Positions 44,547 through 54,414 of a stretch of DNA of 64,000 bases are shown here, piece by piece; the stretch's first letter is position 1, and each line of letters starts with the position of its first letter. The stretch comes from Boletus sp. NGJ. Its lineage: Eukaryota > Basidiomycota > Agaricomycetes > Boletales > Boletaceae. The notes under the pieces were generated by a model. It ran no database searches, was not told the DNA's origin, and was given only the letters and a program-made list of their open reading frames with translations. A program made the position numbers and the translations under genes. Where the stretch lies: contig JAGTXK010000090.1 of NCBI GenBank assembly GCA_019096195.1, forward strand, positions 186,001-250,000, in the 5' to 3' direction.

Positions 44547-44583
44547 CGCTTTTGCGAAAATTACATCTCGATATATCCTGAGT
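44547..44583 (-). repeat. Left border-like terminal repeat
   Basis: Read on the minus strand: CAGGATATAT, then CGAGAT, then GTAATT, then TTCGCAAAAGCG. The 22 bases 44559-44580 match the nopaline T-DNA left border at 17 of 22 positions by my recollection of that border, including all of CAGGATATAT and the GTAA block. The full 34 bases (44547-44580) match 54381-54414 in inverted orientation at 30 of 34 positions. The two ends diverge exactly at the C of CAGG, where VirD2 is known to nick genuine borders (between bases 3 and 4). The canonical TGA/TGG before CAGG is not kept. Confidence 0.55.
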
Positions 44584-44822
44584 AATAGTGAAGTATTTTG
44601 TATTTTCAAAAGTTTAAGTGATGAATTTTTTTTGTTAAAGAACAACAAATTCATTCGGCAATATCGGTTCTGGAATGACTTCATATACAATTTACAAGAG
44701 TGCCGAAGCGATTTAGTACAAAATAGCCGCCAATGGGAGTGCTGAACCCCTCAAAAAACAAACGAGACGATATTCGATATACATGGAAAACGACGAATTT
44801 GCCGACCGGCCTTTCTCATCAA

Positions 44823-46167
44823 TCAATCTGAGTCGAGAGTTAGAAAGACGTGGATAATTCTGAGGAAACTCCCAGCTTCGTCAGAGTGAATGGTTGAGTA
44901 CCAGCCATGTTCGGTCCCGGCATTGTACTCCTGGCCAACGTCCGCAAAGGCGAGGGCTTCAAGTTGCTCAACTGGAAGCTCGCTGATGATCCAATCGAAC
45001 AGTTTGATGTTGTGGGTGATGTTGCCCCGCCTCTCCCTAATAACCCTCATCGGCCCTTCGGCCCACGCCTTAGGCTCACCATCGATCGTAAAGTTGTACT
45101 TGATACCGCGATCCTTATAGTCGTAAGAGCGGCAGACTCCTGCGATGGCGACCTTGGGGTACTGCTGGCGCACTTTGCGGATAAGGATCCTGAGGGCGTA
45201 GTCCTGCATGAACTGCGCGATGTCTGCTTTCTCGGCGACTTCTCCGTAGGGAGTGACGACGCGAGTGGGCTCGGAGTCGGGCACAATGTAGTTCGTGCAT
45301 CCTGCAAGAGGGAGGGAGATGCTCACGATGCGGAGCTGTGCCTCGAAGAAGGACTGACTGAACCAAAGGCCACTGCTCGATGAGAGCCTTATGGTTGCAT
45401 GAGTCGGCCTCAACCTGTGCGAGCCGAGGGAGTGTCCCCATGCTGACGACGACCATCAGCGCGATATTGCTCCTCCAAGCCTGATCCGGCTGATATTGCT
45501 CGACTGCTGCGATCAACTCCTGTGCGCTGGAGAACGAGTATGCGTAGAGTTCGATGACACAGTTCTTATAGGCGAAGGGAAGGTGGCTAAGGAGGGCGAT
45601 AGCGGGTGCCGCATCCTCGTTATGGCAGTCGAGGAAGATGGTGACGTTGGGGTTGCACTGGATGAAGAACGCGATGTACTCATCCATCTTCATGATGGTT
45701 TCCGAAGTAACCTGGAACTTTGGACTGAGTCTGTCTCCGTCAACTTCACGCACGATAATGGGTTCTCCCTTGATCTCATCGTAGGTGAGTTGCTCCCACT
45801 GAATAGGCTCGTCGCGGAAGATGGTACGGGTGGTCTTGAAATCGTGAGCTGTAATGAGCGCGTCTTGCAAACGCACGACGTCGACTTCGATGGAGTTAAG
45901 GAATTTCAAAACGTTGTACCCAGCTAGGAGGGTGCCTTCAGACGCGCGTATAGCGTTGTTTGGGAAAGAGCGGTGGCCGATAATCTGCTTCTGTCCCTTG
46001 GGCGTCCAAGAGGAAAGCAGGTTGGGCATGGAGTGACGGGCCGTCACCTTGGGTTGGGTTATGCCCGCCGGAAAGTTCCAGTTGCACACATTGTTGTGCC
46101 ACGCAGTCTCGGTGGGGGCAATGCTGTCCGGGTGACCTATGAGATCGGAGTGGCACCGATTGTACAT
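44823..46167 (-). CDS. Agrocinopine synthase-like / GDPD-fold phosphodiesterase family protein
   Basis: A protein of about 447 residues starting at 46167 (MYNRCHSDLIGHPDS). It has the glycerophosphodiester phosphodiesterase pattern: IIGHRSFPNNAI (His-Arg of the active site, but NN where GDPDs have EN), AGYNVL and IEVDV (Glu-x-Asp), ALITAHDF (second His), and NVTIFLDCHNED. The second half reads FFEAQLRIVSISLPLAG, CTNYIVPDSEPTRVVTPYGE and HNIKLFDWIISELPVEQLEAL. To my recollection the HRxFxNNAI and PDxEPTRVVTPxGE patterns are those of T-DNA agrocinopine synthases, which join sucrose and arabinose by a phosphodiester bond. The frame changes once, near 45370-45385. Either one base is lost there or a 25-nt GTGAGC..TTGCAG segment is spliced, which would be unusually short. 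A five-residue insertion (KFLNS) precedes IEVDV. Fold confident, opine role inferred. Confidence 0.6.
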
Positions 46168-46244
46168 GTTGAGCAGGAACGCTGCAGGGGATCAAGTGGT
46201 GGTCGTCATGGTTCTGTGCAGTCGATCAGCATAGGCCAAAAGCT

Positions 46245-52180: not shown

Positions 52181-52445
52181 ACGCAGAGCTCCAAAACTCG
52201 CCTCAAACGTGTTAACATTCTGGAAGAGTCGGACCAGTTCCCTCACTTGTCCATAAAAGAGCTGCCCTGCTCTGCCCTCGATCCCCATCCCCAGCTACTT
52301 GAACAAAAACTTGTAAGCAAATTGCGCCATTTTTTCTCACCCCTCAGCTAATCGTCCTTTTAGCAAAGTCACTGCTCGAATCGCTCTTCATTTTTGTGCA
52401 TAGCACATTCAATTCAGAATTTTTGTATACTGATATGCCCCTAGT
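52181..52445 (+). promoter_or_regulatory. Promoter and 5' leader of the cucumopine-synthase-like gene
   Basis: Pyrimidine-rich CCCTCGATCCCCATCCCCAG near 52275 is followed by a likely leader intron, GTAAGCAAATTG (52312) to CGTCCTTTTAG (about 52365). A 70-80 base leader then runs to ATG 52446. The layout mirrors the leader of the gene at 44823-46167. Confidence 0.5.
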
Positions 52446-54195
52446 ATGATGACTACCACTACCTATCCCAACTTGAATGCCCTCATCAAAGCCATCAATG
52501 CGGAGATGGCTAAGATCCCTAGCACTGAGCCTACTGAAATCACGGCCATCCGTACTGGCAACTTGAAGATAGGGACGAACAATCAGTACTTCACCACATG
52601 GGACTTCCTCAATGGAATGGTCCACGACCAATCCATGTACAGTGGCTCAAAAAAGTGTCCCAATGTTTGGCTATTTTGCAAAGACTTGACATTTGCAAAA
52701 GAACCAAAAGGTATTAGCTCTAACCCTTGCTGGGCCATTGATAGCCCTAATCCTTGCCCTGAAGATGGGCCCTTAGTCATGTGAGTTGGTTGTCATGGTA
52801 CTGAGTTATAGCCATATTAAAAGGATATGTCATTGGGACACTTATTTGACCCTGATATTATCAACTATCATTTAGTAACTAACATGAGGTTCTGATGGAT
52901 GCTGTGCTTCAACCCTGTCTGATTATGTCACTTACATAACTCCAAATGGTATAAAGAGCAGAGATACCATTCAGCCAACCCTACTGTCAGTTACTAAATG
53001 ATAGTTGATAATATCAGGGTCAAATAAGTGTCCCAATGACATATCCTTTTAATATGGCTATAACTCAGTACCATGACAACCAACTCACATGACTAAGGGC
53101 CCATCTTCAGGGCAAGGATTAGGGCTATCAATGGCCCAGCAAGGGTTAGAGCTAATACCTTTTGGTTCTTTTGCAAATGTCAAGTCTTTGCAAAATAGCC
53201 AAACATTGGGACACTTTTTTGAGCCACTGTACATGGATTGGTCAAAAAAAAAAAAAAAAAAAAAAAAAAAAAAAAAAAAAAAAAAAAAAAAAAAAAAAAA
53301 AAAAAAAAAAAAAAAAAAAAAAAAAAAAAAAAAAAAAAAAAAAAAAAAAAAATCAATCCATGTACACTTGGTACCATCTCTTCAACGTCTGCGAATCTGG
53401 CGACTTCTCCCTCACCCAATGCTGCACACTCGTTAAAATGTTTGACACTCCCTACAGTAACTATCTTCGCTACAGCGGCTTCCCCACCATGGGTTCTTTT
53501 GTGGTGGAGCTTTACCATCTCATGCCCACCACCAAAGACACCAAAGACGCTGGCAGGGTTGTTCGCTCTTTCCTCATGTATCTTAACCGTCTTGCTGCTT
53601 GGTCCTTTCATGTCTTCCCTTGGCACCTTGGCAAGGACTTGACCTACGTCCCCAATGTGACCGTTGTTGCATCTCTCCAAGACCTTTCTCGCCACGTTAC
53701 TGTCAAACCTGGCTTGAAGGCCAAGCTCACATGGAAAGCCCTCGACATTTCGGTCATCGCCCGCCTTGCGGCGAATGAGAACGAGAAACTCATCGTTGAG
53801 TTTATGCAGGTTTGTCTGTCCCTCATCGTCATTCGCCATCATCACTGATGTCTCACAAGGCTTGCCCCTTCACTGTCCTTCAAGACCACACCGTGGTTTC
53901 GGGTGAATCCATGTATGCCTGGGTTCCACTCACCTCCACTGCCCCCGTCCAAGTCAAAGAGCGTCAGTGTGACGCTCCCATTGGCTGCATTCACTACTCC
54001 CAAGGCACTGGGAACAAGATGATTATCCAGTATGGAGAGGTCACTGAGGACATCGAAATGCCTGTTCTCGGTGAAGTCGAGGCTCAGTATGCCCCACAAC
54101 TCAAGCAAGTCAGGCAGGCTGTCCTCACTAACACCTTCGCTGCTGTAAAGAGGAACATCCTGATCAAGGTCGAGATCGTCCCCTATGGAGCTTAA
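52446..54195 (+). CDS. Cucumopine/mikimopine synthase-like protein, interrupted by a repeat
   Basis: The coding parts are 52446-52639, 53365-53809 and 53860-54195, about 325 residues. The N-terminal helical part reads NLNALIKAINAEMAKIP, EITAIRTGNLKIG, NQYFTTWDFLNGMVHDQSMY then TWYHLF, followed by YLNRLAAWSFHVFPWHLGKD. The C-terminal part reads PFTVLQDHTVVSGESMYAWV, RQCDAPIGCIHYSQGTGNKM and VTEDIEMPVLGEV, a cyclophilin-like DUF3830-type pattern that I recall from cucumopine synthases. These enzymes make an imidazopyridine opine from histidine and 2-oxoglutarate. The intron 53810-53859 (GTTTGT..CTGAT..ACAAG) joins EFMQ to ACPFTV in frame. The first part is cut at DQSMY by a fold-back Tc1 terminus and an A run; the reading resumes exactly in phase after them. 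The family call rests on memory. Confidence 0.5.
52640..53229. repeat. Fold-back element made of Tc1 terminal repeats
   Basis: The left arm (from 52640, CAGTGGCTCAAAAAAGTG) and right arm (ending CCACTG at 53229) are exact reverse complements over about 240 bases. Between them lies a loop of about 105 bases (about 52881-52986) of Tc1 interior. The arms match the terminal repeats of the Tc1 copies at 42878 and 55239. Unexpectedly the palindrome continues 14 bases into the interrupted gene on both sides (GACCAATCCATGTA at 52626-52639 and its complement at 53230-53243). Confidence 0.85.
53244..53352 (+). repeat. Uninterrupted run of 109 A
   Basis: A homopolymer directly after the inverted copy of the gene flank and directly before TCAATCCATGTA, where the gene resumes. 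It creates poly-lysine and poly-phenylalanine frames that are not genes. An assembly or gap-filling artefact is likely. Confidence 0.9.
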
Positions 54196-54377
54196 GTACA
54201 GCGGGATATGTGTCGATTTTTCTTAATAGCCCCTCAATATGTCGTTGATAGCTTAATGATTTGAATTTTTGTACTTGTATTTGAGAAATATGATGTCGCC
54301 TTGCCCCATGAAGCTCAGTCTACTTGCTCAAATAATATTATTTTTCATCGCGATCAAATACTTTGGAAATGAGAAAT
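54196..54377. other. 3' region of the cucumopine-synthase-like gene
   Basis: AT-rich sequence between the stop codon and the right border-like repeat, expected to carry the polyadenylation site (for example near TTCTTAATAG and TTAATGATTTGAATTTTT). No gene. Confidence 0.45.
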
Positions 54378-54414
54378 GAACAGGATATATTGAAATGTAA
54401 TCTTCGCGAAAGCG
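54378..54414 (+). repeat. Right border-like terminal repeat
   Basis: Plus strand: GAA, then CAGGATATAT, then TGAAAT, GTAATC, and TTCGCGAAAGCG. Bases 54381-54402 match the nopaline T-DNA left border at 18 of 22 positions as I recall it. The 34 bases 54381-54414 match the left end (44547-44580) inverted, with four differences, all transitions, two of them in CpG context. In genuine borders the T-strand is nicked just before CAGG. Confidence 0.58.

Follow-up and report, generated by a model that had tools for sequence, protein, structure and literature searches.

A probable decayed natural T-DNA insertion with opine-synthesis-type genes in the genome of Boletus sp. NGJ

How did three genes resembling the opine-synthesis genes of Agrobacterium come to lie within 9.9 kb of a mushroom chromosome? 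The question is raised by an island at positions 44547-54414 of a 64,000-nt stretch of Boletus sp. NGJ (C103:186001-250000, contig JAGTXK010000090.1; hereafter the window), taken from a genome of 32.8 Mb in 141 contigs. The first-pass annotation, made from the sequence alone, had offered three origins for this island: a transferred DNA (T-DNA) that entered the fungus and adapted to it, a bacterium with a fungus-directed T-DNA, or a fungal opine cluster of shared origin. We found that T-DNA entry is the best supported, by integration scars and by rhizobial insertion sequences (ISs) private to single copies. With a probability of about 0.85, the island, termed W, is a decayed natural T-DNA insertion, a fungal counterpart of the cellular T-DNAs (cT-DNAs) of plants. 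This reading is carried by homology of the island's genes with opine genes of T-DNAs, a border core at each of four ends in W and in two copies on contig C101 (termed A and B; other relatives are named by contig), target deletions without duplication at A and B, and rhizobial ISs in two islands. It rests also on the inverted-dimer structure of W and on a patchy tree of cucumopine synthase (Cus) proteins that mixes fungal, plant and bacterial rows. A Rhizobiaceae-type bacterium would have delivered opine-gene DNA with border repeats, presumably through a VirD2/type IV secretion machine; two units would have inserted in opposite orientation, left end to left end, with related units inserting elsewhere in the genome. 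The opine genes of W would later have been broken by frameshift, truncation and insertion. Opine production may have fed the donor.

W was found to contain an acs-like (agrocinopine-synthase-type) gene, a fragment of an octopine/nopaline-dehydrogenase-type (ocs/nos-type) gene and a cus-like (cucumopine-synthase-type) gene, together with an IS481-family IS, a small gene termed gene d and a gene encoding 171 amino acids (aa). Opine-synthase-type genes related to those of tumour-inducing and root-inducing (Ti/Ri) plasmids are thus grouped at one locus, as first proposed, with the correction that all three are broken. An origin in ordinary fungal GDPD and dehydrogenase families, against which the first-pass annotation had asked for a check, was not borne out by these homologies. 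The acs-like gene (44823-46167, minus strand) carries a frameshift near 45380. In tblastn (E up to 1) its first 271 aa found 132 plasmid records, every one from Agrobacterium, Rhizobium, Neorhizobium or Sinorhizobium, the best at 32.9% over 86% of that part. The joined query aligned to an Agrobacterium plasmid protein with 26% identity over 88%; this was the one match in the whole protein database (7992 candidates scored), and PDB gave none. Because it aligns with Ti-plasmid Acs along most of its length, this gene, though distant and broken, fits the agrocinopine synthase family. Its sole NCBIfam match was the AvrBs2 model, weak and far below the cut-off; an Agrobacterium relative (P0121) matches the same model, likewise below the cut-off.

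The octopine/nopaline-type NAD domain noticed at first is also present, as an N-terminal gene fragment only (47418-47939, minus strand). It aligns to residues 7-148 of a 375-aa Rhizobium protein of the octopine/nopaline dehydrogenase family at 28%, and at E up to 1 it matched 93 plasmid records, led by one with E 6e-7 and 28% identity. An octopine/nopaline synthase has both the NAD and the PF02317 helical domain; the latter is missing from the window copy and present in an open reading frame (ORF) on C34.

The cus-like gene (52446-54195, plus strand) aligned to the Cus protein of an Agrobacterium vitis plasmid with 50% (52434-52643), 49% (53351-53842) and 72% (53857-54138) identity; a RolB-family gene lies near that cus gene on its plasmid. 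Seventeen plasmid records were matched, 13 of them Agrobacterium or Rhizobium. The protein database gave 125 matches (120 listed), and among those listed Butyriboletus roseoflavus ranked first (84% identity across 64% of the query), ahead of proteins from metagenomes, Agrobacterium/Rhizobium, Mycena, plants and other bacteria. The five sequences of solved structure related to it bear the names cucumopine synthase, cucumopine synthase domain protein or Pictet-Spenglerase. A match to PF18631, and similarity to known Cus along most of the length, argue that this gene, broken as it is, belongs to the cucumopine synthase family, and by sequence its kin are genes of Ti/Ri plasmids, of other bacteria and of plant T-DNAs. 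It has a single 50-bp GT-AG intron (53810-53859) and is interrupted at about 52638-53352 by a later insertion, a foldback of Tc1 end sequence with a run of about 110 A. The A-run (53243-53353) adjoins the Tc1 foldback and may be an insertion remnant or an assembly problem.

The arrangement of these genes revealed two arms. The acs-like upstream region (46557-47329, minus strand), which has homologues in A, B and C28, is also homologous in inverted orientation to the cus-like upstream region (51876-52440, plus strand), and the arms meet at a perfect 56-bp palindrome (48327-48382), at the position corresponding to the left end of copy B. On the left, B and both W arms start at the same ATATGCATCC, and A starts 10 nt later. 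W is an inverted dimer joined at the palindrome; both the palindrome and the further islands in the genome had escaped the first-pass annotation.

We then considered the outer ends of W, described at first as T-DNA-border-like inverted repeats. These ends (44547-44580, minus strand, and 54381-54414, plus strand) are 34 nt long and 88% complementary, and each holds a border-like core reading outward; Tc1-like DNA ends at 44546 on the left and starts at 54422 on the right. Exact matches to CAGGATATATNNNNNKGTAA were found three times in the genome, at both ends of W and at the end of copy B (C101:437915-437934), compared with 0.18 expected from the base composition of the window. Chance resemblance was ruled out for exact matches, all three of which lie at island ends. 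Six sites have one mismatch, one of them (C101:431502) at the end of copy A. At up to two mismatches the pattern occurs 96 times and its reversed control 94 times, and weaker matches alone therefore mean nothing. The four fungal ends have letters outside the core in common too (TTTTCGCAAAAGCG-like). Such ends were found only at islands, which does not fit the widespread transposon terminus that the first-pass annotation had allowed for. Border cores are also held by Rhizobiaceae loci with cus or acs genes, which we count in favour of a T-DNA: CAGGATATAT occurred in six of 22 bacterial loci with these genes (L044, L046, L076, L078, L080 and L084), with L046 and L080 fitting the pattern with a GTMA second half and the L084 site and a second L080 site lacking that half. 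At up to four mismatches, the stretches of C28 and C34 gave three chance-like sites and zero sites, respectively, and so lend no border support.

Integration scars were legible at the two degenerate sister insertions on C101, A (425940-431556, plus strand) and B (444034-437881, minus strand), which face each other across about 6.3 kb. B sits in a Gypsy gag gene with 39 other matches, of which 19 were extracted for comparison. All 19 gag copies matched the left flank of B (to 437875-437880 in 18), and the match resumed on the right at 444031-444037 in 16, at 444204 in two and never in one. About 50 bp of gag is missing, with zero duplication. A sits in another many-copy repeat, and all four of the uninterrupted copies aligned have 265, 307, 307 or 309 bp between the points where A starts and ends, again with zero duplication. 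Both A and B thus integrated with a small target deletion and without target-site duplication, and neither has the duplication and exact constant ends of a transposon. Target deletions with ragged ends are an outcome of T-DNA end joining and not of a cut-and-paste transposon. Microhomology at T-DNA borders has been described in a fungus (PMC3411245, in its accessible part). The flanks of W are two Tc1 copies of different ages, so that its own scar cannot be read; a single Tc1 split by W was ruled out, since the left and right pieces cover a common part of the element and are of unequal age. The observed/expected CpG ratio was 0.63-0.91 in W and 0.22-0.26 in A and B, which means that W either is more recent than these two copies or was spared. 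Elsewhere the ratio was 0.03-0.08 in several repeats, 0.86 at 1-12000, 0.80 in the repeat-rich 24000-35000 and 0.30 in the left Tc1 flank.

The bacterial IS reported among the genes was confirmed as a full-length IS481-family element (48516-49560, plus strand; transposase ORF 48868-49482), colinear with a Rhizobium copy and lying in a duplicated CTAG target. The first third of its frame is decayed; amino acid identity to the best-listed plasmid copies is 67-73%, and the shortened ORF scored 189 bits with the transposase profile, below the curated cut-off of 224. One clear copy exists in the genome (E 2e-141), the other seven matches having E 0.008 or worse, and the insertion site is uninterrupted in A, B and C28, all three of the other copies read there. 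ISRel2 of Rhizobium belongs to the same family and likewise has CTAG adjoining its left end; it differs from the W element, which lies in a fungal nuclear contig and has a partly decayed frame. A second rhizobial-type IS, of the IS3 family and internally shortened, lies at C28:45060-45880. At the DNA level it is 73-78% identical to an IS of Rhizobium sp. CB3171, and its protein matched more than 5000 plasmid records, the ten listed being Rhizobiales at 84-86%. It was seen in C28 alone among the copies read, with no genome-wide IS3 count made.

Introns followed a different distribution. In gene d (49726-50200, minus strand; delimited by alignment with A, B and C28) the GT and AG of the intron at about 50059-50107 are kept in W, A and C28, and the GT is lost in B. 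The splice sites of the 171-aa gene (50882-51445, plus strand; intron about 50976-51022) are kept in W, A and B. W and B both have the cus intron, and P0037, a Butyriboletus protein, reads there like the product of splicing. Introns common to the copies must predate their split, whereas the IS481 element, found in W only, postdates it, which points to introns already being there when the DNA resided in bacteria. Most simply read, a T-DNA that carried introns diverged within bacteria; alternatively, rhizobial ISs transposed in the fungal nucleus. The fungus-directed T-DNA of the first-pass annotation is thereby somewhat favoured over later adaptation. Because the copies diverged, after intron gain, where rhizobial ISs were transposing, we tentatively propose, at slightly under even odds, an undescribed Rhizobiaceae-type lineage with spliceosomal introns in its T-DNA, the genes being readable only in a fungus and bolete-lineage fungi being transformed repeatedly.

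The phylogeny of Cus, for which the first-pass annotation had called for a tree of bacterial, plant and fungal homologues, was built from 40 rows, 37 chosen from the 120 listed matches and three from this genome. The window protein fell in a fungal clade with two Butyriboletus rows, B and Cytidiella (100/100), and this bolete clade adjoins Mycena and one metagenome protein (94/98, not starred). The labels are intermixed: fungi and plants each need at least three changes on starred branches, and a single fungal origin of cus is accordingly unsupported. B differs from P0037 by 0.04 changes per site, a closeness that points to a host in the Boletaceae near Butyriboletus. The cus pseudogene of copy A has a very long branch and its placement is unreliable. 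Between W and B the cus genes differ at 57, 34 and 111 sites at codon positions 1, 2 and 3 (about 324 each), a concentration at third positions indicating that the protein was under selection after the lineages split. Three further Cus-like proteins, from the yeast Monosporozyma (P0081), Amanita (P0110) and the fern Ceratopteris (P0077), fall outside the bolete clade. A Cus from a metagenome (P0026, encoded on an 82-kb contig) falls with the fungal clade and could point to a donor.

Several observations weigh against a natural T-DNA. No donor bacterium is known, and the scar of W itself is illegible between its Tc1 flanks. Cleavage at a canonical right border leaves about 3 nt attached to the T-DNA. 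The fungal islands instead retain the cores together with outer DNA, the distance from core start to junction being 34 nt (W left), 41 nt (W right), 54 nt (B) and 55-58 nt (A), and neither a right border processed to about 3 nt nor a left-border remnant at the other end was found. Border cores are thus present at both inverted ends of W, as first noticed, and both are of right-border polarity rather than a left/right pair; a left-border core was absent from the window centre at up to one mismatch and from the left ends of A and B at up to two. The transferred strand may have started from an additional nick lying farther outside, or else the system cuts at a different place. The genome has no rol/plast genes (RolB/RolC, PF02027), and related copies are many, most of them not read.

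Could a fungal mobile element have captured bacterial opine genes once and spread within or between fungi, its border-like ends being transposon terminal inverted repeats? Related copies at several loci, the conservation of cores and some outer letters at four ends, and a Cus relative in Cytidiella, which we take to belong to another fungal order, are consistent with this. We nevertheless consider it unlikely in view of the ragged ends and the target deletions without duplication at A and B; the sole transposase found in the W island is that of the rhizobial IS481 element, and this sits in only one of four copies read at the site. An older horizontal transfer without T-DNA machinery, by uptake of bacterial DNA or from fungus to fungus, would account for the introns and fungal-type gene structure, and single T-DNA-like genes are known in fungi (accessible part of PMC5606197). 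It leaves aside the border core at each of the four ends (two in W, one each in A and B), the discrete units with near-constant ends inside unrelated repeats, and the rhizobial ISs within units, and we judge it rather less probable still. Contamination or misassembly might be suspected from the bacterial IS, the bacterial-type genes, the long A-run and the palindromes. That is very improbable for island DNA that lies among fungal repeats in contigs 287 and 826 kb long, with spliceosomal introns, CpG loss in A and B, and close relatives in Butyriboletus.

To our knowledge natural T-DNA engineering, well known in plants, is not established in fungi. The accessible part of a review from 2017 on natural Agrobacterium transformants reports that, beyond plants, no bona fide cT-DNA had come to light, and names gene grouping and chromosomal surroundings as the missing argument (PMC5606197). 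The Boletus genome supplies both, and adds border cores, insertion scars and donor-type ISs. The fungal cases in Table 3 of that review, as far as accessible, resemble ours in being opine-type enzymes of patchy distribution in fungal genomes; they are isolated protein matches without borders, in contrast to the grouped genes, border cores, scars and rhizobial ISs described here. The cT-DNAs of Nicotiana, Linaria and Camellia likewise have opine-type genes, inverted-repeat structure, decayed genes and no known donor strain (PMC5606197 and PMC12568777, accessible parts). Ours differs from these in its fungal host, introns, border cores with outer DNA, lack of detected rol/plast genes and several related insertions of different age. 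Ti/Ri T-DNAs with cus, acs and nos have the same enzyme families and border core; here aa identity is only 25-72%, there are extra genes of unassigned function and spliceosomal introns, and the flank beside the border is different. Some Camellia cT-DNA genes have homologues in ascomycetes and basidiomycetes, according to the accessible part of a 2025 paper (PMC12568777), and that of PMC5705623 holds nothing further on fungal T-DNA. The first-pass statement that no fungal counterpart with borders had been described agrees with our finding no such report in the open-access literature (preprints and most subscription journals lay outside this scope). If the T-DNA reading is true, inter-kingdom T-DNA transfer would be a natural route by which mushrooms have repeatedly gained genes, and the idea of a fungal opine niche, served by a specialised donor bacterium, would become testable.

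The remaining genes of W have no assigned function. The 140-aa exon of the 171-aa gene gave no match among plasmids, and the spliced gene matched one metagenome protein (P0122) among 93 candidates in the protein database. P0122, its sole relative, lies on a 1-kb metagenome contig and could point to a donor. Differences at the three codon positions of this gene (51/36/49 with B, 43/32/37 with A) indicate little constraint. A 159-aa ORF (C101:428711-429190) lies in a stretch common to A and B and absent from W, and neither it nor gene d had a Pfam match.

Relatives of the right arm (49560-52440) were detected on C65, C103 (257.5-261.6k), C124, C28, C34, C102, C97 and C107, those on C97 and C107 each being under 200 bp. 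For C28 (66 kb) and C34 (38 kb) the findings come from part of each contig, with ends unmapped. The C28 stretch holds an ocs-type fragment 37% identical to that of the window, the common upstream region twice, gene d and the IS3-family IS. In C34:11600-20000 we found two open ORFs separated by about 5 kb, one nopaline-dehydrogenase-like (323 aa) and the other agrocinopine-synthase-like (353 aa). The former has PF02317 and 36-38% identity to D-nopaline dehydrogenase and its kin, with 65 of its 66 records from Rhizobiaceae genera; the latter matched 129 plasmid records, all of Rhizobiaceae genera, the eight listed being annotated as agrocinopine synthase (27%). Judged from their open frames, these may possibly be functional opine genes in the same fungus.

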